Virus record (IMG/VR): IMGVR_UViG_3300037042_001548
Span: 1 to 52,466 of that record
Source of the DNA: a virus
Reading direction: 5' to 3' (one strand)
DNA: 52,466 nt
Position numbers and translations under genes: made by a program. The notes below the pieces were generated by a model. It had not been told where the DNA came from. It did not search any database and worked only from the letters and a program-made list of their open reading frames with translations. Numbering within the stretch: position 1 is the stretch's first letter; the number at the start of each line of letters is the position of its first letter. Shown here one piece after another: positions 21,979 through 35,224 of the stretch.

Positions 21979-22033
21979 GGTGTGGTACCTTTCAAAAGTC
22001 AAAAAAGTGTGGGCTAGCCACACGTGAATTATA
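21979..22033 (-). promoter_or_regulatory. Promoter-leader cassette A for the 21978-20724 unit
   Basis: On the minus strand: the -10 box TATAAT at 22033-22028 (context GATGTATAATTCACG), overlapping the stop codon of the upstream gene; a 6-bp stem GTGTGG/CCACAC at 22023-22007; six T at 22006-22001; then the element TTTGACTTTTGAAAGGTA at 22003-21986, whose GAAAGG serves as ribosome binding site. No convincing -35 hexamer is seen. Near-identical cassettes precede other leftward units. Confidence 0.65.
22001..22023 (-). terminator. Possible attenuator inside cassette A
   Basis: A hairpin with 6-bp stem and 5-base loop followed directly by six T residues has the form of a short intrinsic terminator, yet it lies only a few bases past the -10 box and before the gene. 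The 5' arm GTGTGG can also pair with CCACACC just before the start codon, giving two exclusive folds. Attenuation is inferred. Confidence 0.4.
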
Positions 22034-22811
22034 CATCCAAAAGCCAACAGGAGAAGGCATGTTTGTCGTCAATGCATTTCGTACTCAAGAGTTGAGCCTC
22101 ATGCGTTGTGATGTATGGCGGTCTATCTGCCACTGGCAGGTAGGAATTGGTTGATAGGATCTTATTGAACATCTCCATGCGCGACTCGTAGACATGAAAA
22201 GAGCCTGCGGAGACGGTCAGCGTACCCATTTGAACAATCAAGAGTGCCGCAACGATCTCATGCAAAAACGAGAATGTTGGCAAGTCATTTGCCATACCCC
22301 ACAGAATGTCTTGACTTCGCATGATGGCGCGCATGTTAAGCTTGCCATCCCTAAGCCTAAACTCAATGGCCAAGGTACAAGGCACATCCTTGGCCTCGGG
22401 GTCCATATGGTCTACGTCGGAGCCGTACATGGGGATCACCGCACGACGGGACATGGGGTCTTGCTTTAAGATGTGGTGTATGAACCCTACACCGTGGGGG
22501 CCAAACCAATAGCTACCGTAGTTGCTATTGAGCTTGCCATTGAGCACGATCTTGCCCCACTGCGCTGCGTGCGCGGCAATAGATAGGTCATGCGGATCGG
22601 CTTTGATGTACCAAGCCATTTCGCGCTTTAGGTACTTCAGATTGAAGTTGCGGCCTTCGAAAGAGTTGAACCTCACACCGGGGTCACATACGTATGAAAA
22701 GTTCTCAATTTCAAGACACTCAGCACCGCGTGGGCTGGCCCACTTACCCATCGTGGATAGCCCACGGTACAGGTTGATTAGCTCTTCCTCGGTTCTAATT
22801 CGCATTTCCAT
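22029..22811 (-). CDS. Thymidylate-synthase-family enzyme, predicted dCMP hydroxymethylase or dCMP methylase, 260 aa
   Basis: The catalytic residues of the ThyA fold are in register with E. coli thymidylate synthase at an offset of one: RR at 122-123, catalytic Cys145 in DVPCT, RSQD at 165-168, His206 and Tyr208 in SFHVY; Glu64 is the likely catalytic acid. At the position of E. coli Asn177, which selects dUMP, this protein has Asp176 (WGMANDLPTF). In T4 dCMP hydroxymethylase the equivalent residue is Asp179 and it gives dCMP specificity. I therefore predict a C5-modified dCMP product. The start is the ATG with TGAGG seven bases upstream; it overlaps the upstream kinase gene by 17 bases. The next two genes upstream belong to the same probable modification set. 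Confidence 0.8.
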   Translation of the reverse strand: MEMRIRTEEELINLYRGLSTMGKWASPRGAECLEIENFSYVCDPGVRFNSFEGRNFNLKYLKREMAWYIKADPHDLSIAAHAAQWGKIVLNGKLNSNYGSYWFGPHGVGFIHHILKQDPMSRRAVIPMYGSDVDHMDPEAKDVPCTLAIEFRLRDGKLNMRAIMRSQDILWGMANDLPTFSFLHEIVAALLIVQMGTLTVSAGSFHVYESRMEMFNKILSTNSYLPVADRPPYITTHEAQLLSTKCIDDKHAFSCWLLDV

Positions 22812-23730
22812 AGTCAGCCTCAGTGATGTGGTAGGGTTGGTTGGGAAAATTTTGCATGTGGTACAACGGCGGCGGTAATTTGTAAGCACGCACCTCGTTG
22901 TTCAACGCCCATGTGTACGCGTTGTTGCCTAACGCAAAGATTTTGCTAGGCTTTAGCGCGGCAATAAACGCCGGTGATGTAGGCGTACCTTGATACGTTT
23001 GTGTGTTAGCCCAGTACAGCTGCGTTTCAGCAATGCCTTCGCGCTCAAGTGTATCCGCCAGCATACGACTAGGGCCGTCGTTATCCTGGAAGTTGATGAA
23101 AGGCACAACGGCTGCGGAGGGCCGCACATTTGCACGTGGGCCTTTATCGCAAAGCATCAAGATGTTGCCTTCACGAAAACAGCCGCCTCCAGAATGTTTG
23201 TTTGTGTATGACTTATCATTCAGCTGCTGAAGAAGTTCGCTGAGTGTCCCAGAAGTGTAATCATATTGGATTACTGGTAGGCATGTACGCTGCGGCAGCT
23301 GCTCGTACTCATCATAGACCTGTTTTAGCTGCCCGATGGTGTCAAGGTACTCATCATCAATGCGCGACATGAACGTCTTTGCGCAAACTTCAAAGTCAGG
23401 TTGGCATTGCACAACAACGGCGCCGCGGGACAAGGCCACCCGTTCAAGCATGCGCCGCCTTGGCATATCAACGCGATTTTCGCCTTTACGATATACGCTG
23501 CCGTAAATAGGCTCAGACAGCCATGACCTATCCATGATGACGTGGTCATCGTAGGTTAGGGCCTGCGACATAGAGCGAAAAAAGATTTTGCAAAGATCCT
23601 CACTTTGTACGCCTTTGTATGGGCCGTGCTTGATGACATGCGTCATGCCGTTGCTTTGCAACTGCGCACGCAATGTCTCAGCTAGCGTCGTTTTACCGCC
23701 GCCATCTGGCCCCTCAAGAATGATGATCAT
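22795..23730 (-). CDS. P-loop (deoxy)nucleotide kinase fused to a UDG-superfamily-like domain, 311 aa
   Basis: Residues 1-170 are a nucleotide kinase: Walker A GPDGGGKT at 7-14, DRSW at 67-70 in the place of the DR motif of thymidylate kinases, and a lid-like RKGENRVDMPRRR. Residues about 185-300 look like a uracil-DNA-glycosylase-type domain: ILMLCDKGPRA strand, PF near 211, LYWANTQ at 238-244, and LKPSKIFALGNNAYTWAL at 259-276. I see no clear catalytic UDG motif. The kinase would phosphorylate the modified dCMP; the second domain could bind or process modified bases. It overlaps its neighbours by 4 and 17 bases, so the three genes are co-translated. The kinase call is firm, the UDG-like call moderate. 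Confidence 0.75.
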   Translation of the reverse strand: MIIILEGPDGGGKTTLAETLRAQLQSNGMTHVIKHGPYKGVQSEDLCKIFFRSMSQALTYDDHVIMDRSWLSEPIYGSVYRKGENRVDMPRRRMLERVALSRGAVVVQCQPDFEVCAKTFMSRIDDEYLDTIGQLKQVYDEYEQLPQRTCLPVIQYDYTSGTLSELLQQLNDKSYTNKHSGGGCFREGNILMLCDKGPRANVRPSAAVVPFINFQDNDGPSRMLADTLEREGIAETQLYWANTQTYQGTPTSPAFIAALKPSKIFALGNNAYTWALNNEVRAYKLPPPLYHMQNFPNQPYHITEADYGNAN

Positions 23731-24617
23731 TTAAGAATGCTTTCAAGTTTTGCAAGTGTTTCAGGCCTAGTTGCGGTTTTTAAGCTGGTGATTTGCTGCC
23801 CAACCAATTGTTGGTGCTGCTCATCGTTCATGGCCTCAATCTCATGCAGTGTATGACTATACGCAGGGCCAATCATTCCAAGCTCTTTAGGATCTCCGCC
23901 AAGGATTGCCCCGGTGTGTGCAGCGTGCAGGTAACGGACTCGCCACCATCCGCAACCCGCATGGGCATAAGTCGGACAAAGAACGCCTTTGTAGCTCCCG
24001 TACTCCCAGACAACGTCACTTTCAAGGATGCGTGGCTGTCCGAGTGCCTTTCCACCAACGCTATAAATTGGCCACGATAGATTTTGTTGGCTTGCCCACT
24101 CATGTGCCTCCCTCGATAGCGACGCGTTGTACCACTCAGCTTTTCTGTAACGCCACGCAAAATGATGGCAACCTGGAGACTCGTACAAAGGCGACGGATC
24201 CCACGTGTGGATGACATCAACCGGCAAGCCCATTAGCTTAGGGTCACCCCATGGGAACAACGGGGCCAGCCATACATGCTGTTGCAAATCAGCCGCAGGA
24301 ATAACATGCTCCCATGAAGGCAGAATCTTCTGGAAGGCCCAATCATCCAAGCTAATAATAGCATCCATACGCTCTTGCAAAACCCTTTTGGGGCCTTCTG
24401 GATGCACAGCATTGTTGTCCAATGGGTACATGTAGAGGAACACCTTGTCAAACTTTGACAGGTCAGTGTCCTCACGCACATAGTCATGTGTTACCTCATG
24501 CCCAAGGGCCTTAAAGCCTTCGCGCATAAGCTCGGGGATTGACACAAACTTTGTAGAGCTTGCGCGCCTGGGGTTGTTGTTATGCGTCTCAGTGACGCCG
24601 GTAATGAGGATCTTCAT
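23727..24617 (-). CDS. Glycosyltransferase-like (GT-B fold) protein, 296 aa
   Basis: The N-terminus is Rossmann-like (MKILITGVTETHNNNPRR, then a helix and GHEVTHDYV). The C-terminal half has VVWEYGSYKGVLCPTYAHAG followed by GWWRVRYLHAAHTGAIL and GDPKELG, which resembles the nucleotide-sugar side of GT-B enzymes seen in phage genomes. There is no transmembrane segment. It overlaps the kinase-UDG gene by 4 bases (ATGA) and the upstream small gene by 4 bases, placing it in one operon with the dCMP-modifying enzyme. A DNA-base glycosyltransferase acting on 5-hydroxymethylcytosine is the attractive reading; a different nucleotide-handling role is possible. Confidence 0.5.
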   Translation of the reverse strand: MKILITGVTETHNNNPRRASSTKFVSIPELMREGFKALGHEVTHDYVREDTDLSKFDKVFLYMYPLDNNAVHPEGPKRVLQERMDAIISLDDWAFQKILPSWEHVIPAADLQQHVWLAPLFPWGDPKLMGLPVDVIHTWDPSPLYESPGCHHFAWRYRKAEWYNASLSREAHEWASQQNLSWPIYSVGGKALGQPRILESDVVWEYGSYKGVLCPTYAHAGCGWWRVRYLHAAHTGAILGGDPKELGMIGPAYSHTLHEIEAMNDEQHQQLVGQQITSLKTATRPETLAKLESILK

Positions 24618-24832
24618 ACAACGGCAAGAGAAATGTAGCCAGCCTCAGCGTCGTGGTTCACATCACCCGTGCGGCCGCCGAACTCAAGGTACTTTGCCAC
24701 GGTCATGCCGGACTCATACAGCGCAAACCGCGTCCACGCACGTGTGCCTTTACGCTTTGGGTTTTCAGTAGCCAAAACGGTAATGATGGCGGCTTTATTC
24801 GCGCGACGACGCGCCTTCTTTTCTTCAGTCAT
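24614..24832 (-). CDS. Small basic hypothetical protein, 72 aa
   Basis: The start ATG has TAGGAG seven bases upstream; longer readings from 24940 lack a binding site. The N-terminus is strongly basic (MTEEKKARRRANKAAII), and the rest includes RAWTRFALYESGMTVAKYL and GGRTGDVNHDAEAGYISL. Ends with a 4-base overlap into the glycosyltransferase-like gene. Could bind DNA; no family recognised. Confidence 0.65.
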   Translation of the reverse strand: MTEEKKARRRANKAAIITVLATENPKRKGTRAWTRFALYESGMTVAKYLEFGGRTGDVNHDAEAGYISLAVV

Positions 24833-24884
24833 GCTGACTCCTACAGGGTTATGGAAAAATTGTTGCTGCTGCATTGCATTCTTT

Positions 24885-26282
24885 TCAAACATCAACAGAG
24901 GCCATTGTATCACGATGGACGTAATCACGCACTGCATCAAGCAATTTTTGCTGCGTCTTGTCTTTGCGTTTTACCGCTTGCAGGATAGCCTCGTCAACGG
25001 TGTCTTTTGCAATGATGTGATGCACCACAATATGGTTCTTTTGCCCTTGCCGCCACAGCCTACGAATAAACTGCTCGTAGATTTCAAGACTCCAAGTCAG
25101 AGAATACCAGATCACTGCGTGGCCTGCGCCTTGCAAATTAAGGCCATGGCCTGCAGACATCGGGTGGGCAAGCAACACCGGTATTTCGCCTGCGTTCCAC
25201 GCGTTGATGATTGCGTCTAGCTTAGCGCCAATTACGCCACTACCAATTACAGGCGCGTTTGGAAAGGCAGCTTGCAATCTTTCCAAGTCATGCGCAAAAT
25301 GGTAGCCAATGATGCAAGGCTGCCCGGATAGTTCTTCAACCAGCTCAAGTGCAACCTCAGTTTTTGCGTCATGTAAATGTATGCTGGTCTTTTCCGTGGT
25401 GTTGTCATCCATATCCAAGTAAGACCCACCATTGGCGATTTGCTGGCCTTTCATAACGGCAACGGCAGCGTTGACTGCGGTAACGTTACCTGCAGCCAAC
25501 TCAATGGTCAAGTTATCCTCGAAGGCCTTGTACATTTTGCGTGCGGCTGCAGGTAGTTCTATGTAGACGTTGTTGTATGTTAACTCAGGCAAATCTAGAT
25601 GGTCCAGTGCTGCCATACGCAGCACCTTGCCTTCCAGCTTTTCATGGATTCGCTTTTCACCGTCTTGCTGCAGCTTCCACTCGTACCCGCCATACCCGGA
25701 TGGGTAGAAGTACTCTTGCCTAAAGCGGGATACAAACTGCCCAAACGTGGCACCTTGATCAACGATCAGCTGCGGGCCAAAGATGTCCAATAAGCTATTA
25801 GGCGCAGGGGAGCCTGTTAGGCCCCAACGGCGATCAAACTTATTCAGCAACGGCTTAATGCATTTGAACCGCTGTGTTTGCGTGTTCTTCATGTAGCTGA
25901 TTTCATCTACCGTAAGGATTTGAAAAGGCCATGGCTTGCCATTAAGCTGCGATGACAGCCACTGCAAGCCTTCAAAGTTGATTACGTAAATGTCGTGGTT
26001 TTGCTTTAAGACCTTGGCCTTATTGCCACCATGCAGCACGCCTATGGAGTAGCCTTCAAACTGCTCCCACTTCTTAGTCTCGGCAGGCCACACGCCATGC
26101 GCAGGCCTAAGCGGCGCAAGCACCAGCATCTTTTGCACAAGGCCTTTAATCTTCAAGGCGCGAAATGCTGCCAACACAATGGCAGTTTTGCCGAGACCTG
26201 GATCAAGCCATAACGCGCCTGACCCCTGTGAGACCAGAAACTTTACGGCTTCCTTTTGATACTCATGCGGTTCCCAAAACAC
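24885..26282 (-). CDS. SNF2-type DNA helicase/translocase, 465 aa, GTG start
   Basis: Superfamily 2 motifs in order: Q-like EPHEYQKEAV near residue 5, Walker A DPGLGKT at 27-33, DEIS at 126-129, TGSPAPN at 156-162, and a C-terminal SAGHGLNLQGA with QFIRRLWRQGQ (motif VI). This is a compact phage SNF2 helicase. The GTG at 26282 has AGGAGG nine bases upstream, while the TTG at 26288 would be only three bases away. It overlaps the VRR-NUC gene by 20 bases. Likely role: remodelling replication or recombination intermediates together with the nuclease genes upstream. Confidence 0.88.
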   Translation of the reverse strand: MFWEPHEYQKEAVKFLVSQGSGALWLDPGLGKTAIVLAAFRALKIKGLVQKMLVLAPLRPAHGVWPAETKKWEQFEGYSIGVLHGGNKAKVLKQNHDIYVINFEGLQWLSSQLNGKPWPFQILTVDEISYMKNTQTQRFKCIKPLLNKFDRRWGLTGSPAPNSLLDIFGPQLIVDQGATFGQFVSRFRQEYFYPSGYGGYEWKLQQDGEKRIHEKLEGKVLRMAALDHLDLPELTYNNVYIELPAAARKMYKAFEDNLTIELAAGNVTAVNAAVAVMKGQQIANGGSYLDMDDNTTEKTSIHLHDAKTEVALELVEELSGQPCIIGYHFAHDLERLQAAFPNAPVIGSGVIGAKLDAIINAWNAGEIPVLLAHPMSAGHGLNLQGAGHAVIWYSLTWSLEIYEQFIRRLWRQGQKNHIVVHHIIAKDTVDEAILQAVKRKDKTQQKLLDAVRDYVHRDTMASVDV

Positions 26283-26556
26283 GATCAATGTCCTCCTTAC
26301 TGTAAGTCACATGCACCTTGTGACCTAGCCGCGCAAGATCAGCATGCACCTTTTCTTGCAAAGCTGATAGCTTACCTCCCGGCCGTTTAAGCTCTACCCA
26401 AAGCACCTCGCCATTTTCAAGAGCAACAATGCGATCAGGCCAACCGCGTGTAAATCGCACATGCAATTTCAATGTCATCAGCTTATGCTTTTTGCATTGC
26501 GCCGAGAAGTACCTTTCCAGGTCGCGTTCAAGCAGTACGCGTGCTACCATTGGCAT
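26263..26556 (-). CDS. VRR-NUC domain nuclease, 97 aa
   Basis: Small single-domain PD-(D/E)XK enzyme: RGWPDRIVAL with Asp41, then VLWVELKRPGG with Glu55 and Lys57, followed by LSALQEKVHADLARLGHKV, the usual VRR-NUC helix and final strand. In phages such nucleases often sit beside SNF2 helicases, as here, and are thought to cut branched DNA. Start taken at the first ATG (MPMVARV); six bases downstream is another. It overlaps the Cas4-like gene by 13 bases. Confidence 0.88.
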   Translation of the reverse strand: MPMVARVLLERDLERYFSAQCKKHKLMTLKLHVRFTRGWPDRIVALENGEVLWVELKRPGGKLSALQEKVHADLARLGHKVHVTYSKEDIDRVLGTA

Positions 26557-27179
26557 GGGCCCCCATTGGATTTGCGAAAGTGGCACCACCGGCAGCCATA
26601 GTCTGGCTTTGGCGCAAAGATGTCGTCGTTTTCAATCTTTTTAATTCTGTCAGTTAGCCATGCTTTCAACACAACCAACTCGGATCGCTTGTACGTGTCA
26701 TGCGGCATGCGCTTGTTGAGGTCTGTGTAGCAAATCTCGGTGGTAACGTAATCAATTTCTGGATTGCATACCATGATGATGGTGGCGTATAGCTTTAGCT
26801 GGTCGCCGTAGTCCCGTTCTTTGCCTGACTTCCAATCCAAAACATGTGCATGCCCATCTTTGTGCCACACAGCGTCATACACGCCGCGCACCCAATACTT
26901 AGGGTCTTTGAAATCACAAGGGACCCAGTCGCGTGTAATGGCAAACTCGGTTTCGCATTGCGTATGCTTTGCAGTAAGTTCTTGTACGTAATCAAGCCAA
27001 AACTTTTGCGTGTCAGGTAGCATGCCTAGGCCCATAATGGCATGCTCAAACTCGCTGTGAATTAGCTTGCCCCGCTCCGCGGCTTCACCTGAAGGCTCTT
27101 TGCGATGCTCAATGCGTGTGAGCTTGTACTTGTAGGGACATTGCTCGTAAGCTTTGATCGATGAATGTGAAAAGCCCAT
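26544..27179 (-). CDS. Cas4/RecB-like PD-(D/E)XK exonuclease with Fe-S cluster motif, 211 aa
   Basis: FSHSSIKAYEQCPYKYKL at the N-terminus is the classic start of the RecB/Cas4 nuclease group. Catalytic residues: His41 (RGKLIH), Asp102 (GVYDAV), Asp115 and Lys117 (LDWKSG). Four cysteines, Cys14, Cys196, Cys199 and Cys209, are placed as in AddB/Cas4 iron-sulphur clusters. It degrades or processes DNA ends, probably for recombination or replication. The upstream small gene overlaps its start by one base (TAATG). Confidence 0.88.
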   Translation of the reverse strand: MGFSHSSIKAYEQCPYKYKLTRIEHRKEPSGEAAERGKLIHSEFEHAIMGLGMLPDTQKFWLDYVQELTAKHTQCETEFAITRDWVPCDFKDPKYWVRGVYDAVWHKDGHAHVLDWKSGKERDYGDQLKLYATIIMVCNPEIDYVTTEICYTDLNKRMPHDTYKRSELVVLKAWLTDRIKKIENDDIFAPKPDYGCRWCHFRKSNGGPCQW

Positions 27180-27358
27180 TATTGTGACTCCCGTTCTGCA
27201 ACGCGTGCGTCCTCTGCAGCATGATACGCCAGCCGCGTTTGCGCAATTGCGTTAAGCAATTCTTCCTTGCCTGCTGTGTAGTCCCTTCGAATCAAAGCTT
27301 CGTAAGCTTGACGTAAATGCTTTTCTGCCATTAGCATGGGGTGTGCGTAGTCAATCAT
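27179..27358 (-). CDS. Small helical hypothetical protein, 59 aa
   Basis: Begins MIDYAHPMLMAEKHLRQAY with GGAGG seven bases before the ATG. Two predicted helices (EELLNAIAQTRLAYHAAED). Stop and next start share one base (TAATG), and it begins directly after the stop of the small membrane protein gene, so translation is coupled. No family recognised. Confidence 0.75.
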   Translation of the reverse strand: MIDYAHPMLMAEKHLRQAYEALIRRDYTAGKEELLNAIAQTRLAYHAAEDARVAERESQ

Positions 27359-27457
27359 TCAAGGCCTCCACACAAACACATCAAGCGCCACCACAACTGC
27401 GCAAACACAAAAGATGATGACATTCCAGCGAATGGACATAAACTTTTCATTGCTCAT
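27359..27457 (-). CDS. Small single-span membrane protein, 32 aa
   Basis: Starts at an ATG with AAGGAGCAGGTA before it; an in-frame ATG five codons upstream overlaps the polymerase stop (ATGA) and is the alternative. Residues 11-29 are hydrophobic (WNVIIFCVCAVVVALDVFV), flanked by positive charges on the N side. The stop codon touches the next start. Very short, but the binding site, spacing and coherent transmembrane pattern support it. Confidence 0.65.
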   Translation of the reverse strand: MSNEKFMSIRWNVIIFCVCAVVVALDVFVWRP

Positions 27458-27468
27458 TACCTGCTCCT

Positions 27469-29328
27469 TCATTTGGTTTCCTGATACGTTTCACCGACTT
27501 TGTAATCCGAGACCATAGGCACATCCATGGCCAATGCATTGCACATGCTCCACATTAGTGTTTCTGCCTCGCGCTCAATATGCTCAACCGGCGTTGAGAT
27601 GACCAACTCATCATGCACACTAAGTAGCAATCTACTACCAAGACGGCGCTTTTGATACAGCAGCATAGCGGCCTTGGCCTGATCAGCTGCTGAGCCTTGA
27701 ATTAGCAAGTTGACGCCTTTGTAATCAAACTCCCTAAGGCGGCCGTTGATGATCTTTGGAGGCTCCATCATAACCAACCTACCGCCTAGTGTTTTGATAG
27801 GCTGGCTAAGCTTGTACCGAGTACGCATAACACCTTGCATGGTCTTAAGACCTGGCGCCACCGCTGATGTGTAGGCATCCATCAACGTTTTGGCAAGCTC
27901 ATAGCTAATCTCAAGCATTTCGCTAATCTTTTGCGGCCCTGCGCCATACAAAATGGCAAACGATACGCCTTTGGAGTAGGTACGGGATACTTCCTGGCCG
28001 GCAGCCTCGGACATCAACTTGGCAGCGTAGGTATGCAGATCAGCACGGGCATCCTGCTGGTACTGCTGCATAAGGTTGCCACCTTCAAAGTGCGCAAAGA
28101 TTCGCAGCTCCTGCGCATTGAAATCACATGCTACTAGCTTATGACCTTCATCCGGAAGAATGAAACTACGAATGAGTGGCAATGGGGTTATGTCGAGCTC
28201 TGCGGGGATGATGATTTCGTTTCGTCCCATACTTGCAGTTGCCCCACCGGTAACAATTTTTGGGTAGCGAACAGGCGCATTTTGAAAATTAGGGGTGGAT
28301 GAGAGTCGCCCCGTGCGGGTCCCGCCACGTTCACCTCGTACACTATTCCAGTTCGTGTAGATTCGACCTGTAGATGTAGAAGCTTCCAGCCAGGGCTCAA
28401 TGAAAGTTGACAGGCATGTTGATAGGTTGGCTCTGTAGCGTAGGACACCTTTTAACTCCGTGTGGGTGATGATTTCTTCCAATGTTTCCTTATCCGCCTT
28501 AGGGGATCCTTTGTCCGTAGCGGGCCAGCCATTCTTTTTGTCCCAGTAGTCTGTGGGATAAATACTATCGACCAGCTGCCGATCGCTGTCAACATTCAAC
28601 TCAGGAGACCCAAGCAATGTACGAACCCAAGCATTACACTTTTCAATGTCTATTTGCGCTTGCAATTTTGCTTTTTGCAACCCATCGCGATCAACCCTTA
28701 CGCCTAAACGCGAGTTTTCAAGCAACATGGGGATCAGCGCAATCTCACGTTGATACGGCTCAAACTGCGCCGGCAAAACCAAAGGCTGCAAAAACTCATA
28801 AAGCAAAGAGGTAAGCTTTACATCGGCCTCGGCATAGCGGCCTACCAATTCAACGGGGCCTTTTGAAATGTGCGCGCCCCAGGTAGACTTTTTACGCCTT
28901 GCCTCGTCAACATTGGCAATAACCCAGTCTCGCAATTCATCTCGTTCATTCGGCTCAGCAAGGCTGTAGGTAACCACCAAGTCTTTAAGGGACAAGGACG
29001 GCACATGCGGATTATGCAAGAACGCAAGTATCAGTGTATCGTGCACACGATCAGGCGTAGGCATTGGCAAGCCTAGGTGCGTCTCCGCAACGTCAAGGTC
29101 AAACATTGCGTTGTGAAAGCAGATCTCCCTATCGCTGTCATAGATCAGCTCAAGGATTGTTTGCACCGTACGCTCCGTGGTGTTGTTGCCACTCAAATGG
29201 CCAAAGGCATGGTAACCATTGGGGTACTCACCTTCGGGGTCATAGAGGGCCAATCCGACAGGTCTGGGTGGGTATGCAGGCCGTGGGCCAATGGCCTCTG
29301 TTTCAAAATCAAGGAATACAGGTTTCAT
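27469..29328 (-). CDS. Family A DNA polymerase with 3'-5' exonuclease domain, 619 aa
   Basis: Exonuclease motifs: DFETEA at 7-12, HNAMFD at 72-77, YAEAD at 165-169. Polymerase motifs: TGRLSS at 339-344; motif A D402-F-N-A-Q-E407-L-R; motif B with Lys453, Phe457 and Tyr461 in SKGVSFAILYGAG; motif C VHDE at 571-574. Thus both active sites are intact. Phe457 matches E. coli Phe762, so it should discriminate against dideoxynucleotides. Motif A departs from the usual DYSQIELR. No 5'-nuclease domain, as in T7 polymerase. It is the phage replicase, co-expressed with the SNF2 helicase and nucleases; the upstream zinc-ribbon gene overlaps its start by 4 bases. Confidence 0.96.
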   Translation of the reverse strand: MKPVFLDFETEAIGPRPAYPPRPVGLALYDPEGEYPNGYHAFGHLSGNNTTERTVQTILELIYDSDREICFHNAMFDLDVAETHLGLPMPTPDRVHDTLILAFLHNPHVPSLSLKDLVVTYSLAEPNERDELRDWVIANVDEARRKKSTWGAHISKGPVELVGRYAEADVKLTSLLYEFLQPLVLPAQFEPYQREIALIPMLLENSRLGVRVDRDGLQKAKLQAQIDIEKCNAWVRTLLGSPELNVDSDRQLVDSIYPTDYWDKKNGWPATDKGSPKADKETLEEIITHTELKGVLRYRANLSTCLSTFIEPWLEASTSTGRIYTNWNSVRGERGGTRTGRLSSTPNFQNAPVRYPKIVTGGATASMGRNEIIIPAELDITPLPLIRSFILPDEGHKLVACDFNAQELRIFAHFEGGNLMQQYQQDARADLHTYAAKLMSEAAGQEVSRTYSKGVSFAILYGAGPQKISEMLEISYELAKTLMDAYTSAVAPGLKTMQGVMRTRYKLSQPIKTLGGRLVMMEPPKIINGRLREFDYKGVNLLIQGSAADQAKAAMLLYQKRRLGSRLLLSVHDELVISTPVEHIEREAETLMWSMCNALAMDVPMVSDYKVGETYQETK

Positions 29329-29507
29329 GTGTGTTTAGATGTGGTTGATTGCTGTTTGTATACGCGCTTGTTGCGAGGCTGCGTGATGACGATTTCCTCA
29401 GTTGAAAAAACATGCATGTTGTAGCACTCCCTACGCCTGATCACTTTATCATCCACGTTGCGTTTTGATTTGACGTCTGTAGGCGCTCGACACAGCGGGC
29501 ATTTCAT
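29325..29507 (-). CDS. NrdR-like zinc-ribbon protein, 60 aa
   Basis: Begins MKCPLCRAPTDV and has VIRRRECYNMHVFSTEEIV, close to the zinc-ribbon start of NrdR (MKCPFC ... IRRRRECLNC). The second metal half is C-x3-H instead of C-x2-C and the ATP-cone domain is missing, so it is a stand-alone ribbon. It may bind DNA, perhaps as a small transcription regulator. The ATG at 29507 has GGAGG six bases upstream and overlaps the preceding stop by 4 bases. Confidence 0.7.
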   Translation of the reverse strand: MKCPLCRAPTDVKSKRNVDDKVIRRRECYNMHVFSTEEIVITQPRNKRVYKQQSTTSKHT

Positions 29508-29686
29508 TTCCACCCTCCGGGCCAGTCGTCAAACAGCATGCCATCAGGCTTGACTTGATCCATCACCTTGTCCAGAGCATCAAGGGCTCGTTGCGTCTTC
29601 ACTTGGTCAATTGGAAACGGTAAGGTTGCCATATGCAATGCGTCCTGCGCCAGCTTGAGTGCGTTGATGACTTCATCCTTGGTCAT
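29504..29686 (-). CDS. Hypothetical protein, 60 aa
   Basis: Begins MTKDEVINALKLAQDALH and ends DGMLFDDWPGGWK; two helices, acidic. AGGGGGAACAC precedes the ATG and both ends overlap neighbours by 4 bases. Small protein of unknown function in the early operon. Confidence 0.7.
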   Translation of the reverse strand: MTKDEVINALKLAQDALHMATLPFPIDQVKTQRALDALDKVMDQVKPDGMLFDDWPGGWK

Positions 29687-29859
29687 GTGTTCCCCCTCGC
29701 CAAATCAAGCAGCGCGCAGACCTCGTCAGCCCTGAGTGTCACGGCCCAAGATCCTGTGTCATACTTTGTGCATCCAAGGTGATCGTCTGTCTCGCACCCG
29801 CTCAACATGGCATACGTCACTCTTGCCTCGATACCGTCCAATAATTCTTTGTCAGTCAT
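29683..29859 (-). CDS. Hypothetical protein, 58 aa
   Basis: Begins MTDKELLDGIEARVTYAML and ends LLDLARGNT. AAGGGGGAACAC precedes the ATG; overlaps both neighbours by 4 bases. The last codons contain the ribosome binding site of the next gene. Two Cys (GCETDD, LGCTKY) might bind a metal but no known motif is met. Confidence 0.7.
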   Translation of the reverse strand: MTDKELLDGIEARVTYAMLSGCETDDHLGCTKYDTGSWAVTLRADEVCALLDLARGNT

Positions 29860-30011
29860 GTGTTCCCCCTTGCGTACTCTTTATGGTGCGGGTAGGCAAT
29901 CGGCAGCTTGGCACCGCATCTACTGCACTGGTCGTGGGTGTATCTCCAGTGCTTGCCCATGCAACTGATGTCGTTGCGATGACCTAGTAGTCGGCACAGC
30001 AACTTCCTCAT
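29856..30011 (-). CDS. Small zinc-binding-type protein, DUF1660-like, 51 aa
   Basis: Begins MRKLLCRLLGHRND and has KHWRYTHDQCSRCGAKL: an N-terminal Cys-His pair and a later CxxC, which resemble the DUF1660 group of small phage zinc proteins. Ends in YARGNT. AAGGGGGCAAGC precedes the ATG; overlaps both neighbours by 4 bases. Confidence 0.65.
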   Translation of the reverse strand: MRKLLCRLLGHRNDISCMGKHWRYTHDQCSRCGAKLPIAYPHHKEYARGNT

Positions 30012-30256
30012 GCTTGCCCCCTTGCTCGGATGGCGGCGGCAATATCTCTGGGGTCTGCGCTGTCGCTATCCCAATCCTCAACCATCTTTGCAATCGCCTC
30101 ACGCTCAGCAGCAGCGACGAGGGCGGCAAAGCGTTCAAGCTGTCGCAGTTCTTCAATCTCTGAATCGCACAGGGCATCTTCCTTGCCGTACATGTGTAGC
30201 AAGACGGCGCTGCGTAACCCAGCCTCCTGCGCCATGCGGATGATGTCATCTTTCAT
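30008..30256 (-). CDS. Small helical early protein, 82 aa (paralogue of the gene at 32678)
   Basis: Begins MKDDIIRMAQEAGL and has LERFAALVAAAEREAIAKM. The gene at 32678-32914 begins MTKDDITRMAREAGF and has LREFATLVAAAQR, so the two are paralogues. AAGGAGAACAC precedes the ATG. The protein is acidic and helical; I know no function for this common phage family. Confidence 0.75.
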   Translation of the reverse strand: MKDDIIRMAQEAGLRSAVLLHMYGKEDALCDSEIEELRQLERFAALVAAAEREAIAKMVEDWDSDSADPRDIAAAIRARGQA

Positions 30257-30608
30257 GTGTTCTCCTTATCTTGGCTTCGATGGCTCGGGCAGCGTGGGTT
30301 AGTATGGCGCGAGTTGTCGCCGTAGTGTGTTCGCCGAACCCAAGCGCTTCTGCAATCTGCTCGTCCGTCAGCGGCTTGCGCTGTGGTGGTGCGGTGTAGA
30401 GGGGCGCAAGCTGATATGCATTTGCATCGCCATCCGGCGAATGCTGCTCGGGCCAATGCAATGATTTGCCGCCACCCATACGGTGATAAACTGCATACGC
30501 CACAGGCTCCTGCTCTGGCTGCGCCAGCCTCTCGCGCAACTCGTCGCGCTGCGCTTTGATGCACTGGGGTTTGTCGCAGTAGTAACTGCACGAATGGATG
30601 TCAGTCAT
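30246..30608 (-). CDS. Phage hypothetical protein with QEPVAY and DEQIAEAL motifs, 120 aa
   Basis: Two Cys pairs near the N-terminus (SCSYYC, PQC), a charged helix (RDELRERLAQPEQEPVAYAV), then LYTAPPQRKPLTDEQIAEAL. This modular pattern recurs in small proteins of Burkholderiales phages and prophages. It overlaps the upstream gene by 4 bases and the downstream gene by 11. Function unknown. Confidence 0.75.
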   Translation of the reverse strand: MTDIHSCSYYCDKPQCIKAQRDELRERLAQPEQEPVAYAVYHRMGGGKSLHWPEQHSPDGDANAYQLAPLYTAPPQRKPLTDEQIAEALGFGEHTTATTRAILTHAARAIEAKIRRTHER

Positions 30609-30835
30609 ACCTCATACCCTTCCTTCAGCATCATTGCCCGTGGGTAGTGGTGTTTAAACCGGCCCCACATTTCTTCCCTGTGGTCTTTGTCCTCGCACCA
30701 ATTGAAGAGCCATTCCCAAGAAGCATCCTCGCGGCCTTGCTCAAAGTGGTGCATTGCCCAGTACATTGAGCCGACCACGTTTTTCTGCGCGGTGTAGTAG
30801 TCATTGAGCAGGATCAGCAGCTTAATGTCAGTCAT
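30605..30835 (-). CDS. Hypothetical protein, 76 aa
   Basis: Start taken at the ATG that overlaps the upstream stop by 4 bases (MTDIKLLILLNDYYT). The protein is Trp- and Glu-rich (GREDASWEWLFNWCEDKDHR). An ATG 15 bases further upstream lies inside the previous gene and is less likely. Function unknown. Confidence 0.7.
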   Translation of the reverse strand: MTDIKLLILLNDYYTAQKNVVGSMYWAMHHFEQGREDASWEWLFNWCEDKDHREEMWGRFKHHYPRAMMLKEGYEV

Positions 30836-31014
30836 GACAACGCCTTCCATTTGCTTTTTGGCTCGTTGGCCCTCTCCACATAGAAGTGGATCAAGAAATT
30901 AAAAATCTGCACATACGTCATGTTGATTCCCGTATCGTGCTTGATGCGCTCACGGATCAAGTCGATGTCCTTGGTCACCGGCACGGTGATGCGTTTTGTT
31001 TTTGGGTTGATCAT
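30832..31014 (-). CDS. Ribbon-helix-helix-type small DNA-binding protein, 60 aa
   Basis: Begins MINPKTKRITVPVTKDIDLI, then RERIKHDTGINMTYVQIFNF; a short basic strand followed by two helices fits the Arc/MetJ ribbon-helix-helix fold. It is the first gene of the longest leftward unit (31014 down to 22029) and directly follows the TTTGACTTTTGAAAGGTA element. A regulator of the early operon is a reasonable guess. A TTG four codons upstream lies in the leader and is not used here. Confidence 0.6.
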   Translation of the reverse strand: MINPKTKRITVPVTKDIDLIRERIKHDTGINMTYVQIFNFLIHFYVERANEPKSKWKALS

Positions 31015-31137
31015 GTTACCTTTCAAAAGTCAAAATGAGGTGGGGGCCTCGATTTGGGTTTTAGCTTGTTGCAGCAGAAAGCCAGAAAATGCTGCAAATC
31101 ACCATCCTCGAACGCAGGCTTAACAGCCCCCAGAAAC
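31015..31137 (-). promoter_or_regulatory. Leader G of the long early unit (element without a clear -10)
   Basis: The element TTTGACTTTTGAAAGGTA is at 31034-31017. Upstream in the leader are a small GAGG/CCTC hairpin and a perfect 8-bp inverted repeat TTGCAGCA/TGCTGCAA (31069-31076 and 31090-31097). Unlike the other leaders I see no good TATAAT box, so this unit may be read from the upstream promoter. Nothing else is seen in this gap. Confidence 0.5.
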
Positions 31138-31878
31138 TCAATACTTATTGCTAGTTGCAGGGGCCTCGGCCGACTGCTCCTGATCAACCTCACCCGCGGT
31201 TTCAATGGCGCGTTGCGTTTCGATCTTGGCACGCTCCATCAGCGCGCTAATGACCGCCGAGTCCTCAATGGCTTTGATCAGGCTAAAGGTAACCTTGAAC
31301 TGCGTTTTGGCGTCAGGCACCACAGCAATCTCGCTGATCACAGCCAAAGGCGGCCGCTTCAACGTAGTTGCCACCGTCTGCACGTAGGTGCTATAGTTCT
31401 TCAGGCTGGTAACAGGCGGACGCAGCGCGGCAACCTCAGCAGCTTTAACAGCCTCGACCGAGCCAATGCTATCGGCGGGGATCACCAACAGCCGGCGCGT
31501 TTCGCGGCAAGCTTTGCCTTTGCCACCATTTGTTGCCGAGCCCCATTCATTCTTGGGGCAGCCTTCGCAGGTGTCATGCTGCTTGCCTTCGGCGCGATCG
31601 GATGGGCCCATACCGGTTGCAATGGCTGCAATGGCAAAGCACTTCGGCCCAACCAACTTGGTGGGGTCGTACCTGGTGTCATAGTACAGCCGCTCAATAG
31701 GGGCTTGCAGAATCACACACTGCAGCTTATTGCCGGTAATGGGGTTGCCCCGGTAGGTCAGGGCGCCATTCTTGGTGGAAAGGAAGGTAGCACCAAGGCC
31801 GGATTGCTCCGCCTTCACTGAGTCCACGGCCATCTTGGCCAACTCATCTTCAAACAGGGCGACTTGATTTTTCGACAT
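31138..31878 (-). CDS. Early protein with Cys-rich centre, possible ssDNA-binding protein, 246 aa
   Basis: The start ATG has AAGGAG nine bases upstream (MSKNQVALFEDELAKMAV); longer readings enter the upstream gene. The middle has GPKCFAIAAI, then DTCEGCPKNEWGSAT and GKACRETRRLLVIP, four Cys that could bind a metal. The tail is acidic (EVDQEQSAEAPATSNKY), as in single-stranded-DNA-binding proteins of replication modules. There is no other SSB candidate in the window, but this is an inference only. Confidence 0.55.
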   Translation of the reverse strand: MSKNQVALFEDELAKMAVDSVKAEQSGLGATFLSTKNGALTYRGNPITGNKLQCVILQAPIERLYYDTRYDPTKLVGPKCFAIAAIATGMGPSDRAEGKQHDTCEGCPKNEWGSATNGGKGKACRETRRLLVIPADSIGSVEAVKAAEVAALRPPVTSLKNYSTYVQTVATTLKRPPLAVISEIAVVPDAKTQFKVTFSLIKAIEDSAVISALMERAKIETQRAIETAGEVDQEQSAEAPATSNKY

Positions 31879-31900
31879 GGCTAAAGCTCCTTGTAACATG

Positions 31901-32278
31901 TCACTTGCGACGAACACTGAGTTCCCAAACATCCGACGTGGATGTTCCGGGGATAGACTCGCCTGCTTCCCAGCGCTCACGGAATGCAGTCGAGGACAGC
32001 CGCTTATGCAGCAGTTCAAATTGTTTGGTATCAGCGACGTAGCCATAGAAGGCTTGCCAATCGTTGATGGCGGGGTGACGCACCAGCTTCATAGACAGGG
32101 ACGCCTTATCGCTGGCGGCCTGCGTAATGCCAGCATGCGACATCAAATCCATGATGTCTTTTTCAAGGCCGGCCAGATCTGTGGTGCATTTGCGTACGTC
32201 TTCAGAGAGTGACTCACGGCGAGCCTTGATCTCTACGTACTTGTCAATGAGGTCTTTGATGTTCATAGTACTGCTCAT
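31901..32278 (-). CDS. Coiled-coil hypothetical protein, 125 aa
   Basis: Residues 6-50 form a charged heptad-like helix (KYVEIKARRESLSEDVRKC, LAGLEKDIMDLMSHAG). The remainder contains WQAFYGYVADTKQFELLHK and a Ser/Thr-rich end. Its start overlaps the MazG-like stop by 4 bases. No family recognised; belongs to the leftward unit B with nucleotide and DNA metabolism genes. Confidence 0.7.
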   Translation of the reverse strand: MSSTMNIKDLIDKYVEIKARRESLSEDVRKCTTDLAGLEKDIMDLMSHAGITQAASDKASLSMKLVRHPAINDWQAFYGYVADTKQFELLHKRLSSTAFRERWEAGESIPGTSTSDVWELSVRRK

Positions 32279-32691
32279 TTTATGTCATCAACGCCGCTGT
32301 ACTGCATCTCGCTTATAAGCAATTGCATTTCGCATTCCGGCGCAACCCAGCCAACCGGCTTGACCACGTCGTACTGGTTGCCTCGCACAGAGCGTATGTA
32401 GGCATTGGCCGGTTGCTTTTGCATGTTGGACCGGTGCACTATGTCAAACAGCTTGTCAAAGGGCATACCCATGGCGTGTGCGCAGCCCATTGCAACGTAG
32501 ACCAAGTCCACCAACGCGTCCGCCGCGTCAACCAAGTGCCCCTCCTCCACCGCGCGAAGATACTCGCTGAGCTCTTCAAGAATGAACCGCGCAAAGTAAC
32601 TGGTCTCGGTGGGCTGTAGAAACATAGGCCGCTCGCCTATAGGCAAGGACATGGCCTTACGGAACTCACCAACTTTTTCAAAGTTCGTCAT
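32275..32691 (-). CDS. MazG/HisE-superfamily NTP pyrophosphohydrolase, 138 aa
   Basis: The metal-binding signature of the all-alpha NTP-PPase superfamily is clear: EELSEY with Glu39, Glu40 and Glu43, then ADALVDLVYVAMG with Asp58 and Asp62, and HRSNMQK near residue 86. Such enzymes split (d)NTPs to (d)NMP and pyrophosphate. T4 gp56 dCTPase removes dCTP for a similar reason, so here it could clear unmodified dCTP for the modification genes at 22-25 kb; the substrate is inferred. It overlaps neighbours by 4 and 14 bases. Confidence 0.85.
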   Translation of the reverse strand: MTNFEKVGEFRKAMSLPIGERPMFLQPTETSYFARFILEELSEYLRAVEEGHLVDAADALVDLVYVAMGCAHAMGMPFDKLFDIVHRSNMQKQPANAYIRSVRGNQYDVVKPVGWVAPECEMQLLISEMQYSGVDDIK

Positions 32692-32914
32692 CTTCCTTTA
32701 CCTTTCCATTACGGATTGCCTCGGCATTGGCCTGCAACAGGCTACGCCATATGGGATTTTCACATGCCATGGCGTTGCTGTCAACCAGGTTGGCGTCAAG
32801 CTTACGTTGTGCGGCAGCGACAAGGGTGGCGAATTCACGCAGGCATTTGTTTTCGCCATCAAATCCAACAAAACCGGCCTCCCGCGCCATGCGGGTGATG
32901 TCATCCTTAGTCAT
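32678..32914 (-). CDS. Small helical early protein, 78 aa (paralogue of the gene at 30008)
   Basis: Begins MTKDDITRMAREAGFVGF and has CLREFATLVAAAQRKL, paralogous to the 82-residue protein at 30008. Its C-terminal half is different (NPIWRSLLQANAEAIRNGK). The start overlaps the upstream gene by 4 bases, the end overlaps the MazG-like gene by 14. Unknown function. Confidence 0.75.
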   Translation of the reverse strand: MTKDDITRMAREAGFVGFDGENKCLREFATLVAAAQRKLDANLVDSNAMACENPIWRSLLQANAEAIRNGKVKEDDEL

Positions 32915-33420
32915 ACTGTAGCCTCCACAAGGAGGTCTTGGAGCCAGTCAGGCTGCGGGCTACGGCCTTTGTTGTACACCAGCGGCATGGCTGCTGCCTT
33001 GCTGGCGTAGTACTTGCGGTAGGACTCGATGTGATCGGCGGACTTGTACTCGTCGGGCATTGCCAATGTAGGTGGCGTCCACCGCAACGGCAAGTCCATC
33101 ATTTCAGGAGGGGCATACATAAGCTCGCGGAACCACACGCCGCGGGACTTATGGTCATGGCCATAGCGCCAGAAAAACTGGCGGCCGAGACCGCTAGCCA
33201 AATCGCTAACCCACTGATAGTTGAGACGGGACTGACGGACCCAGACGGCTGAAGGGTGATTGGCATGTGTGGGGCGGTACGACACTTTGTGGCCGTTGCC
33301 GAAGTGATGGTGCGCAGTGGCCAGAAGCTGGCAGGACTCGATAAGCATTTTGCCGACATGCTTGTCGCAGTGGTACTGCGCGGCAATCAACGGCAGCTGA
33401 TGGAGATAGAAGATGTTCAT
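32911..33420 (-). CDS. Conserved-type phage protein of unknown function, 169 aa
   Basis: Begins MNIFYLHQLPLIAAQYHCDK and has HVGKMLIESCQLLATAHHHF, RPTHANHPSAVWVRQS and HDHKSRGVWFREL. I have seen this His-rich pattern in many phage genomes, where it carries no function; the CDKH and HxNHP motifs could form a metal site. The ATG at 33420 follows GAAAGGTACGACACC; the reading that starts further upstream covers the leader. First gene of the unit driven by cassette B. Confidence 0.7.
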   Translation of the reverse strand: MNIFYLHQLPLIAAQYHCDKHVGKMLIESCQLLATAHHHFGNGHKVSYRPTHANHPSAVWVRQSRLNYQWVSDLASGLGRQFFWRYGHDHKSRGVWFRELMYAPPEMMDLPLRWTPPTLAMPDEYKSADHIESYRKYYASKAAAMPLVYNKGRSPQPDWLQDLLVEATV

Positions 33421-33501
33421 GGTGTCGTACCTTTCAAAGATCAAAGACTAGTGGGACAAGTTGCAGCAGCCGAGTGAGTGACTGCTGCTGAGGCGATTAT
33501 A
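33421..33501 (-). promoter_or_regulatory. Promoter-leader cassette B for the 33420-31138 unit
   Basis: On the minus strand: -10 box TATAAT at 33501-33496 (context AGTGTATAATCGCC), directly after the stop codon of the previous gene; a 7-bp hairpin CAGCAGC/GCTGCTG (33490-33484 with 33470-33464); then TTTGATCTTTGAAAGGTA at 33445-33428, whose GAAAGG is the ribosome binding site. No clear -35. Confidence 0.65.
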
Positions 33502-33504
33502 CAC

Positions 33505-33723
33505 TTAGTCGTGACAAACGGCGACGGCCGCCTCCTCAATAGTTGCTGCAATGCGTATGTCCAGCAACTCGCGGATGTCAACGCCTTTCACCTTGGCGGT
33601 GATAAGGTAGGCCTCGGCGGGGAAGGCGGGGTCGATCTCCGTTGCGGTTTGACCGGGTACAAACTCCAGCTCGCAGTCAAGCTCAACGCCGTCAATGGTC
33701 ATGGTGTGCGTGATGATTTGCAT
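33505..33723 (-). CDS. Hypothetical protein, 72 aa
   Basis: Begins MQIITHTMTIDGVELDCELE and is acidic and beta-rich (EAYLITAKVKGVDIRELLDI). It starts two bases after the stop of the gene above and ends just before cassette B. Unknown function. Confidence 0.7.
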   Translation of the reverse strand: MQIITHTMTIDGVELDCELEFVPGQTATEIDPAFPAEAYLITAKVKGVDIRELLDIRIAATIEEAAVAVCHD

Positions 33724-33725
33724 GA

Positions 33726-33965
33726 TCAGGCCTCCACGTCGTTGCGGTTGATCACGACAATCTCGGGCGTCATGCCAAACTGGATTGCGTACCTAAGCGA
33801 GAACATTTGCGCAAGCAAAGGCTTGCGCATGGCAAGGTACCCATCAAACTCTTCTGTGGAGCGTGCAACCTTGATGTTCTGCTTTGCGCATCGAGCTTCG
33901 AACGCCTCGATTGCATCAAGGAGAGCCTCAATGCGAGCTTTGGGGATGGTGACAGTCTGCGTCAT
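33726..33965 (-). CDS. Hypothetical protein, 79 aa
   Basis: Begins MTQTVTIPKARIEALLDAIE, a short strand and a helix, then EARCAKQNIKVARSTEEFDG and SLRYAIQFGMTPEIVVI. The ATG follows GAAAGGTAGAATC, the end of cassette C. Longer readings enter the leader. Unknown function. Confidence 0.7.
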   Translation of the reverse strand: MTQTVTIPKARIEALLDAIEAFEARCAKQNIKVARSTEEFDGYLAMRKPLLAQMFSLRYAIQFGMTPEIVVINRNDVEA

Positions 33966-34025
33966 GATTCTACCTTTCAAAAGTCAAAGAATGGGAGGCC
34001 AGTCCTAGGCCTCCCGTGAATTATA
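33966..34025 (-). promoter_or_regulatory. Promoter-leader cassette C for the 33965-33505 unit
   Basis: On the minus strand: -10 TATAAT at 34025-34020 in GATGTATAATTCACG, identical over 15 bases to cassette A; an 8-bp perfect hairpin GGGAGGCC/GGCCTCCC (34015-34008 with 34000-33993, 7-base loop); then TTTGACTTTTGAAAGGTA at 33988-33971, ending 5 bases before the ATG. The box lies just after the stop of the DUF932 gene. Confidence 0.7.
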
Positions 34026-34027
34026 CA

Positions 34028-34993
34028 TCAGGCCAGCGCCAGGAGTGCCTCGGCAACTTTGGCCTTGACGTTCACCCCGCCGCCGAACCAGGCATTGGCC
34101 AGCCGAGCGTCATTGGTGCGGGCGGTTTCCCAATCCAGGAGCTGCGTAACGGCGTTGAGTGCGCCCCATGCTGTGCCTTTGGCCGACTCCAACTCGGCGC
34201 CGATGCCGGAGCCTTCGAAGAGGGTCAGTGCTCGAGCTGCAGCGCGGCTTGGCTTTTTCTCGTCGCCGCCAAGGATCTTGGTGAAGACGTTCTGTGCTTG
34301 TGCCGAGCTGAGTTTGATGCCGGCCAGGACCTTGGCGGTTTGCTCAAAAGTCTTAAACGCGTCGTTGAACTCGCCGAGCCGCGCCTTGACCGACGCGGGG
34401 TCAAACACGCTGTTGTGGCGAACTTGAACTACGCTTTGCATACCGGCGCCAATTGCAATCTGCATGGTGTTGTTGCACACCACGCGGACAGGGGTCAGCC
34501 GTGCCTGAGTGGCCAGGGAGCCATCGCAGCTCGATGCCAAGAGGAGATATGGGTTGACCTTGTCGCCTGCAACGGCGAACTCGCCATCCATCCGAGCCAG
34601 TGCCCAGTAGTGAGCGCCGTTGCGAAGGACGCCTGCTGTTTCCAGGTGGGCGATCGTGCCGACCATGTCGCGGAAGAATTCCAGCACCTCGATGGGCTGC
34701 ACAATCTTGTAGCTGTTGCTCACCAGGCCAAGGGGCTCCTTGGTATCAGCGCGGTACATCACCTTCTTGCCATGGTAGGCAAGCCGCTCGGTACGCATGC
34801 CGTTCCAAGCCGTCGGGGGGATGTCGAAGTTGACGGTGGCGGTGGCCAATTGGAAGGCCAGACCAGACTCCTCGGCCCAGGTTTCGATGCTGCTATCTTG
34901 CGTGAGACGTTGACCCAGGCCGTGCCAAGGGGTGTCACCAACGTAAGCCATAGCTGCTTTGCCGGTAGAGGTGGATGCGATCATGTGAGCCAT
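34028..34993 (-). CDS. DUF932 (phage/plasmid-like) protein, 321 aa
   Basis: Recognisable DUF932 pattern: TPWHGLGQRL near residue 22, VMYRADTKEPLGLVSNSYKI and VQPIEVLEFFRDMV, PYLLLASSCDGS, VRVVCNNTM, and VQVRHNSVFDPASVK. The family is widespread in phages and plasmids and has no settled activity. It is the first leftward gene next to the divergent control region and has its own promoter cassette D, so it is likely very early. Confidence 0.88.
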   Translation of the reverse strand: MAHMIASTSTGKAAMAYVGDTPWHGLGQRLTQDSSIETWAEESGLAFQLATATVNFDIPPTAWNGMRTERLAYHGKKVMYRADTKEPLGLVSNSYKIVQPIEVLEFFRDMVGTIAHLETAGVLRNGAHYWALARMDGEFAVAGDKVNPYLLLASSCDGSLATQARLTPVRVVCNNTMQIAIGAGMQSVVQVRHNSVFDPASVKARLGEFNDAFKTFEQTAKVLAGIKLSSAQAQNVFTKILGGDEKKPSRAAARALTLFEGSGIGAELESAKGTAWGALNAVTQLLDWETARTNDARLANAWFGGGVNVKAKVAEALLALA

Positions 34994-35063
34994 TTTGCGT
35001 TCCTTTCAAAGATCAGGTTGGTTGTTACAGCAATCTGAAGTGTGTTGCTGTGAAAGCATTATA
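34994..35063 (-). promoter_or_regulatory. Promoter-leader cassette D for the DUF932 gene
   Basis: On the minus strand: -10 TATAAT at 35063-35058 (context GGCGTATAATGC), a 7-bp hairpin ACAGCAA/TTGCTGT (35051-35045 with 35033-35027), then the variant element CCTGATCTTTGAAAGGAA at 35017-35000, with GAAAGGA as ribosome binding site. The region has no good -35. Confidence 0.65.
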
Positions 35064-35081: not shown

Positions 35082-35224
35082 TGTACACAGGCTTGCGAAA
35101 ATTTTACAATTCTGTACTTGCGTTTTAAGAATTGGGTTACAGGCTCACGAAACTGTACACTTTCGTTTCTCAAGACTTGAGCACCACAACTTTTTGCCTT
35201 GGCTCCATAGGCTGTGGATGTACA
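35082..35224. promoter_or_regulatory. Repeats between the divergent promoters (candidate operators)
   Basis: The 360-base gene-free region 34994-35353 contains, besides two promoters, a direct repeat ACAGGCTTGCGAAA (35087-35100) and ACAGGCTCACGAAA (35139-35152); TGTACA palindromes at 35082-35087, 35154-35159 and 35219-35224 (the last overlaps the rightward -10); TGTACT at 35113; and the palindrome CTCAAGACTTGAG (35169-35181). These look like protein-binding sites of a control region or origin. Binding is inferred. Confidence 0.5.

Follow-up and report, generated by a model that had tools for sequence, protein, structure and literature searches.

The virus record IMGVR_UViG_3300037042_001548, from an uncultured, probably freshwater phage, carries a recurring arrangement of a TATAAT box, a hairpin and a ribosome-binding element ahead of several of its genes, and the question is what this cassette does and what reads it. 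The whole record (52,466 bases, 52% GC) was analysed and is referred to here as the window. The cassette family is real, conserved and phage-specific, and is a new variation on a known type of leader. On balance, and with no great assurance, we favour the reading that the cassette is a start-of-unit module that joins a -10-type promoter, a 5' RNA hairpin and an enhancer-like Shine-Dalgarno site. Most early gene units of the phage and its relatives open with this module, in which the hairpin is usual and not universal; judged from sequence, it most likely makes a stable, efficiently translated mRNA.

In this reading, the host RNA polymerase would start the transcript at the -10-type promoter, where the TATAAT box and a G at -16, sometimes helped by a -35 or a TGn motif, would substitute for a strong -35. 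The RNA would begin at, or a few bases before, the stem-loop, which may shield the 5' end and keep the start region open. In the downstream A/U-rich Shine-Dalgarno element, YTGAYYWTTGAAAGGWA, GAAAGG would pair with 16S rRNA and TTGAYYWTT would act as a translation enhancer, so that the first gene of the unit would be strongly translated; the later genes would rely on ordinary AAGGAG-type sites or on coupling.

A conserved, phage-specific family of cassettes

The four complete cassettes, A to D, lie on the minus strand (Table 1), and a box, a hairpin and an element were confirmed in each where a sequence-only reading of this DNA had placed them, as were the 15 bases that it found identical in A and C (GATGTATAATTCACG). 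The other sites that it described are present too: element E, which has no box, a plus-strand variant of the cassette at 35221, and at 39551 a box with a hairpin. It overlooked a further cassette, F (24909-24881). The boxes had been said to follow the previous stop codon closely: that of A overlaps the stop, and those of B and C begin 2-3 nucleotides (nt) past one. The minus strand of the window has four copies of TTTGA[CT].TTTGAAAGG and the plus strand none, with 0.00 copies expected, and all five minus-strand copies of TTTGAAAGG are those of A-E (0.35 expected per strand). TATAAT by itself is not enriched (six on the minus strand versus ~5 expected), and four of the six lie in cassettes.

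Relatives were gathered as dozens of viral contigs from searches with the DUF932 and phrog_624 proteins, the close ones at 56-96% identity. The sequence-only reading had named beforehand a lack of conservation in related phages as grounds for giving up the idea; the elements are conserved, box and element recurring upstream of orthologous genes. Among 200 non-redundant AAAGG gene starts in the relatives, 54 have both box and element, 11 the element only, 15 the box only and 120 neither (odds ratio 39, p 5e-24), and because the two co-occur in this way the element is taken to be functional. A chance origin of the cassettes was rejected by the motif counts, the position before ATG and the box-element association.

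The element consensus YTGAYYWTTGAAAGGWA was taken from the relatives' logo, for which the search pattern fixed the TGAY, W and TTGAAAGG positions. The unforced flanks are conserved too, with Y before the element and W then A (98%) after GG, and a logo forced only to AAAGG plus the box still gives T-G-A-Y-Y-W-T-T-G. The element is a ribosome-binding site (RBS), since its strict form stands 3-15 nt before ATG in 76 of 76 unique copies. An rRNA-type boxA antitermination site, raised by CTTTGA after the hairpin, was rejected because the C/T run upstream of TGA is not conserved and the element is always tied to ATG. In the window the element is confined to cassette genes, and the remaining gene starts have AAGGAG/GGAGG-type sites or none.

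A host-type RBS was likewise rejected, given the near-absence of the element from 369 betaproteobacterial genomes, the host itself not being identified. The full element with ATG is absent from 119/120 and 248/249 genomes of two betaproteobacterial families, which may not be the host's; the two genomes that have it are the search-centre genomes, with one copy each. Even the half element ATTGAAAGGAA..ATG is rare (30 of 120 betaproteobacterial genomes). Among the matches listed, bacterial contigs show scattered single copies and many viral contigs carry two or three. The annotated phage collection holds no near match to the record. MW202545 has a large terminase with 63% identity to that of this phage, yet no cassette element was found in the 50 kb of it that were scanned (L273, L495), and virion genes and cassette-bearing replication genes therefore seem to have separate histories.

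Table 1. Positions of cassette parts and related sites in the window
Cassette	Part	Sequence	Position	Strand	Remarks
A	-10 box	GGATG-TATAAT	22028..22033	-	overlaps TAA stop of thymidylate-synthase-like gene 22029-22889
A	hairpin	GTGTGG-CTAGC-CCACAC then TTTTTT	22007..22023	-	terminator-like
A	RBS element	TTTGACTTTTGAAAGG	21988..22003	-	gene start 21978
B	-10 box	AAGTG-TATAAT	33496..33501	-	
B	hairpin	GCAGCAGTC...GGCTGCTGC	33463..33488	-	9 bp
B	RBS element	TTTGATCTTTGAAAGG	33430..33445	-	gene start 33420; phrog_624, annotated DNA-binding protein
C	-10 box	TGATG-TATAAT	34020..34025	-	
C	hairpin	GGGAGGCC...GGCCTCCC	33993..34015	-	8 bp; terminator-like
C	RBS element	TTTGACTTTTGAAAGG	33973..33988	-	gene start 33965
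D	-35-like hexamer	TGTACA	35082..35087	-	18 nt before -10; 10/12 consensus matches
D	-10 box	TATAAT	35058..35063	-	
D	hairpin	ACAGCAA...TTGCTGT	35027..35051	-	several relatives: TGTAG-GCAA-CTACA at same place
D	RBS element	TGATCTTTGAAAGG	35002..35015	-	without TT before TGA; gene start 34993 (DUF932)
E	RBS element	TTTGACTTTTGAAAGG	31019..31034	-	box-less; weak 4-bp hairpin 31050-31037 just upstream; gene start 31014
F	box and RBS element	TGATACAAT box (TACAAT 24909-24904); TTGATGTTTGAAAAG (24895-24881)	24881..24909	-	gene start 24874
Plus-strand variant	whole cassette	-35-like TTGGCT; GGATG-TACAAT 35221-35226	35199..35270	+	divergent from D
Plus-strand variant	hairpin	CGGCCC...GGGCCG	35233-35249	+	
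Plus-strand variant	degenerate element	TTTGACCGTTGAAAG	35256-35270	+	
Box-hairpin	box and hairpin	TATAAT + TCTCGC-GCTT-GCGAGA	39551..39582	+	before late gene, ATG at 39599

The box of cassette F (TGA-TACAAT) sits within the 3' end of a helicase gene and leaves no room for a hairpin; box and element are kept in relatives L008, L033, L089, L093, L106, L109 and L114. The late gene behind the box-hairpin has an ordinary GAGGG Shine-Dalgarno site without the TTGAY element. A strong, terminator-like stem-loop of 15 bp (35274-35309), with its T run on the minus strand, lies between the divergent cassettes and a primase-like gene.

Hairpins and termination

Do the hairpins belong to the RNA that the cassette starts, or do they end the unit before it? 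Of 45 leaders with room for a hairpin, 29 have a stem of 5 bp or more, with one G-U pair permitted, compared with 16.9 ± 2.7 after shuffling, the null for folds and hairpins being first-order Markov resampling. The predicted hairpins of A-D start 4-7 nt after the -10 box, and 79% of leader hairpins start 3-9 nt after it, about at the expected +1, versus 33% in shuffles; with positions from ~+1 onward, the hairpins would lie in the RNA. The mean fold z-score over 49 leaders is -1.09, and a strong hairpin lies within 70 nt upstream of 36 of 67 elements (null 10.8 ± 2.6). Orthologues of D have either of two unrelated hairpins in the same place, CAGCAA...TTGCTG or TGTAG-GCAA-CTACA, and orthologues of B show paired changes from GCAGTC/GGCTGC to GCAATC/GATTGC. 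These cases and the excess over shuffles bear out the proposal that structure is selected, and the comparison of leaders supports hairpins that are kept as structure while their sequence varies.

It is possible, although unlikely, that the main role of the hairpins is to end the upstream unit as intrinsic terminators or attenuators, with promoter, terminator and RBS packed together and the hairpin and T run setting read-through. The terminator scan of the region lists the hairpins of A and C, the former running into TTTTTT; seven box-less elements in relatives have a strong upstream hairpin, several with the T run fused to the element (for example AGGCCCTTCGGGGCCT-TTTTTGACTATTGAAAGG in L023), and other relatives have a GGGGCTTCGGCCCC-type hairpin before the box. 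However, the hairpins of B and D have no T run and are not listed by the scan, and the region has no clear surplus of terminator-like sites (26 versus 21.7 ± 5.1 in shuffles). The hairpin starts cluster at the expected +1, and the spacing in A-D means that the RNA of the unit itself would hit the terminator at once. Under the start-of-unit module, some hairpins may additionally end the upstream unit.

A known RNA family was rejected, as Rfam gave 0 matches in the window at the gathering score. In one fold, the start region paired with hairpin arm A; this alternative was dropped, its sequence not being kept in relatives. The hairpin-less leaders of B orthologues (for example in L023, L093 and L106) carry a second conserved motif, GTCCACTYGT / TCACGTTACTAGTCC, between box and element, which is partly visible in cassette B of the window (TTGTCCCACTAGT).

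Promoter boxes and factors that might read the cassette

G at -16 distinguishes the cassette boxes, being present in 45 of 54 (83%) against 151 of 716 control boxes (21%; other TATAAT-like hexamers of the same contigs; p 2e-20), and G at -13 (69%) and T at -14 (54%) are also frequent. Two classes of box can be recognized, GRTG-TATAAT and CGTGN-TATAAT, the latter a textbook extended -10 (PMC2613000). The -35 is degenerate, the best match 15-19 nt upstream averaging 3.13/6 versus 2.81 ± 0.10 in shuffles. That it is absent in all cassettes, as the sequence-only reading had it, holds for A, B and C, which reach no threshold, and fails for D (TGTACA-18-TATAAT) and the plus-strand copy (TTGGCT-16-TACAAT), which have a hexamer 16-18 nt upstream; far relatives of D (L040, L042) have TTTACA-17-TATAAT. 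Since the -35 is degenerate but present in D, the plus-strand copy and these far relatives, a host-type holoenzyme is favoured as the probable reader.

Extended -10 sigma-70 promoters (TGn at -15 to -13; Gram-positive TRTG at -17 to -14) similarly have an upstream G-containing motif able to offset a poor -35. F and the CGTGN-TATAAT relatives fit them exactly, with TGn in register directly before the -10, but in A-D it is not in register. In A, B and C the TG stands at -14/-13, one base too close to the -10, and the most conserved upstream base here is the G at -16.

A phage sigma factor or RNA polymerase-binding protein might instead read -10-only boxes (GRTG-TATAAT), in the manner of phiEco32 gp36, which recognises tAATGTAtA without a -35 (PMC8948821); we regard this as rather improbable. 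Like the middle/late promoters of gp36, the boxes are -10-like single elements, and A and C, with GATGTATAAT, come near the phiEco32 consensus (PMC8948821) and contain ATGTATA; the weak enrichment of the -35 and the restriction of G at -16 to cassette boxes would also suit such a factor. However, only A and C match the consensus, and in part; it does not describe B, D, F or the CGTGN-TATAAT class. The cassettes differ from gp36 promoters in their G at -16, full TATAAT and occasional -35 hexamers (in D and in relatives such as L040 and L042), and the units carry replication genes, which are expected to be early. Profile scans with Pfam and PHROGs, covering most, not every, open reading frame, found no sigma factor or RNA polymerase among the scanned proteins, although such a search may miss a strongly diverged sigma factor. 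The suggestion in the sequence-only reading that a phage factor acts on RNA polymerase is thus not supported, the more so as D and some relatives have an ordinary -35 and the hairpin, from ~+1, would be in the RNA; its alternatives, mRNA ends or translation, are the better fit.

A reading that seems doubtful to us is that the element serves a phage protein as translational operator or as processing site, as the targets of T4 RegA and RegB do, and is more than a plain strong RBS. The motif is long, rigid and private to phages, and box-less copies retain it. As a precedent, T4 RegB, which cuts early mRNAs inside their Shine-Dalgarno sites, requires a longer consensus (PMC3014915); both systems have early phage genes with a longer conserved Shine-Dalgarno context. 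The T4 sites contain GGAG, in contrast to GAAAGG here, and no candidate RNA-binding protein or RegB-like nuclease was recognised; moreover, the element has just the position and core expected of a Shine-Dalgarno site, and strong translation alone would explain much. We give similarly little credence to YTGAYYWTTGAAAGGWA being a phage-specific translation code, by which the messages that carry it are selectively favoured or later silenced, either through a phage protein or through a change that the phage induces in the ribosome; if it were, the first genes of early units would be switched as one regulon after transcription. The rigid TTGAYYW half may be no more than a good enhancer, or it may be what a phage factor reads. 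Finally, N4-type promoter hairpins read by a virion RNA polymerase are barely credible. The repeated occurrence of hairpins close to promoters and the very large size of two phage proteins (1680 and 1994 aa) speak for them; against them stand the position of the hairpins, downstream of a -10 box of sigma type, the free variation in hairpin sequence, and the failure of the scans of large proteins to find an RNA polymerase.

Several points weigh against the start-of-unit module. The 67 elements compared comprise 21 with box then hairpin, 7 with hairpin then box, 7 with a hairpin and no box, 27 with a box and no strong hairpin, 4 with neither and 1 with the two overlapping. Because 27 of 67 have a box without a strong hairpin, and 11 leaders leave too little room for a hairpin, it is an optional part; the hairpins of the seven box-less elements are strong and often terminator-like. 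The hairpin null was no exact dinucleotide shuffle. Judged by E. coli rules, A, B and C qualify neither as -10/-35 promoters nor as TGn promoters in register, and pure extended -10 promoters without other contacts have been doubted (PMC2613000). In addition, a generic A/U-rich enhancer would not need conservation as strict as that of TTGAYYW. As relatives show several arrangements, the fixed order of parts that had been proposed holds in this window only; elsewhere the hairpin follows the box, precedes it, occurs without it or is missing.

Likeness to the T7 gene 10 leader, and neighbouring genes

The start-of-unit module most resembles the leader of T7 gene 10 on the phi10 transcript, whose order of promoter, 5'-terminal hairpin, A/U-rich enhancer, Shine-Dalgarno site and ATG it would share, given its predicted hairpin position and putative enhancer. 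In T7 such a layout is known to increase expression. The T7 RBS consists of a Shine-Dalgarno site and an upstream 9-nt enhancer, for which binding of ribosomal protein S1 has been proposed (PMC8748333). In the betaproteobacterium Cupriavidus necator, the T7 gene 10 stem-loop placed before the RBS increased expression 1.5- to 3-fold, raised mRNA abundance and stabilised the mRNA, and an A/U-rich stretch helped one RBS (PMC6146998); a stabilising role of the hairpin and an enhancer role of the element are what we infer for the cassettes. TTTGACTTTTGAAAGG and TTTAACTTTAAGAAGG of T7 match at 12/16 positions, the T7 letters up to AAGAA being from PMC6146998, and TTTGACTTTTGA here is similar, not identical, to the A/U-rich 9-nt enhancer. 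Only in far relatives (L041, L043, L044, L046-L051) does TTAACTTTA stand just before AGGAG upstream of the DUF932 gene; these are 9 bases of the T7 gene 10 RBS enhancer region, within the fragment quoted in PMC6146998. Unlike the T7 leader, the cassettes have a promoter of sigma type with a -10 box, recur at many early units and carry GAAAGG as Shine-Dalgarno core and a more rigid TTGAYYW; Pfam and PHROGs scans of the submitted proteins found no T7-type single-subunit RNA polymerase. The likeness would be functional, and homology is not claimed.

The cassette offers a genome-readable marker of early-unit starts in a large, uncultured phage group, and its dozens of promoter-hairpin-RBS leaders form a natural library that may work in betaproteobacteria-like hosts. 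Should a phage factor read the element, it would define a new kind of translational regulon; if none does, the leaders could serve, like that of T7 gene 10, as expression parts.

The gene behind cassette A (21256-21978) belongs to a family, of which 19 aligned members have invariant N-terminal W-T..E and C-terminal VLIDGG motifs. Its 240-aa protein is predicted to have a helical N-terminal domain and a small alpha/beta domain (mean predicted local-distance difference test score, pLDDT, 80; predicted template-modelling score, pTM, 0.40). It was considered as a phage regulator and set aside, the predicted fold having no structural match at E 0.001. A very large protein (39599-45559; 1994 aa as listed from TTG at 39575) follows the box-hairpin at 39551 and matches nothing in Pfam or PHROGs. 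The product of 48553-49005, encoded between a portal-like and a capsid-protease-like gene, matches a GroES-type co-chaperonin family (phrog_3188, 9e-9); in MW202545 a chaperonin 10 kd subunit is annotated between the connector and capsid genes.

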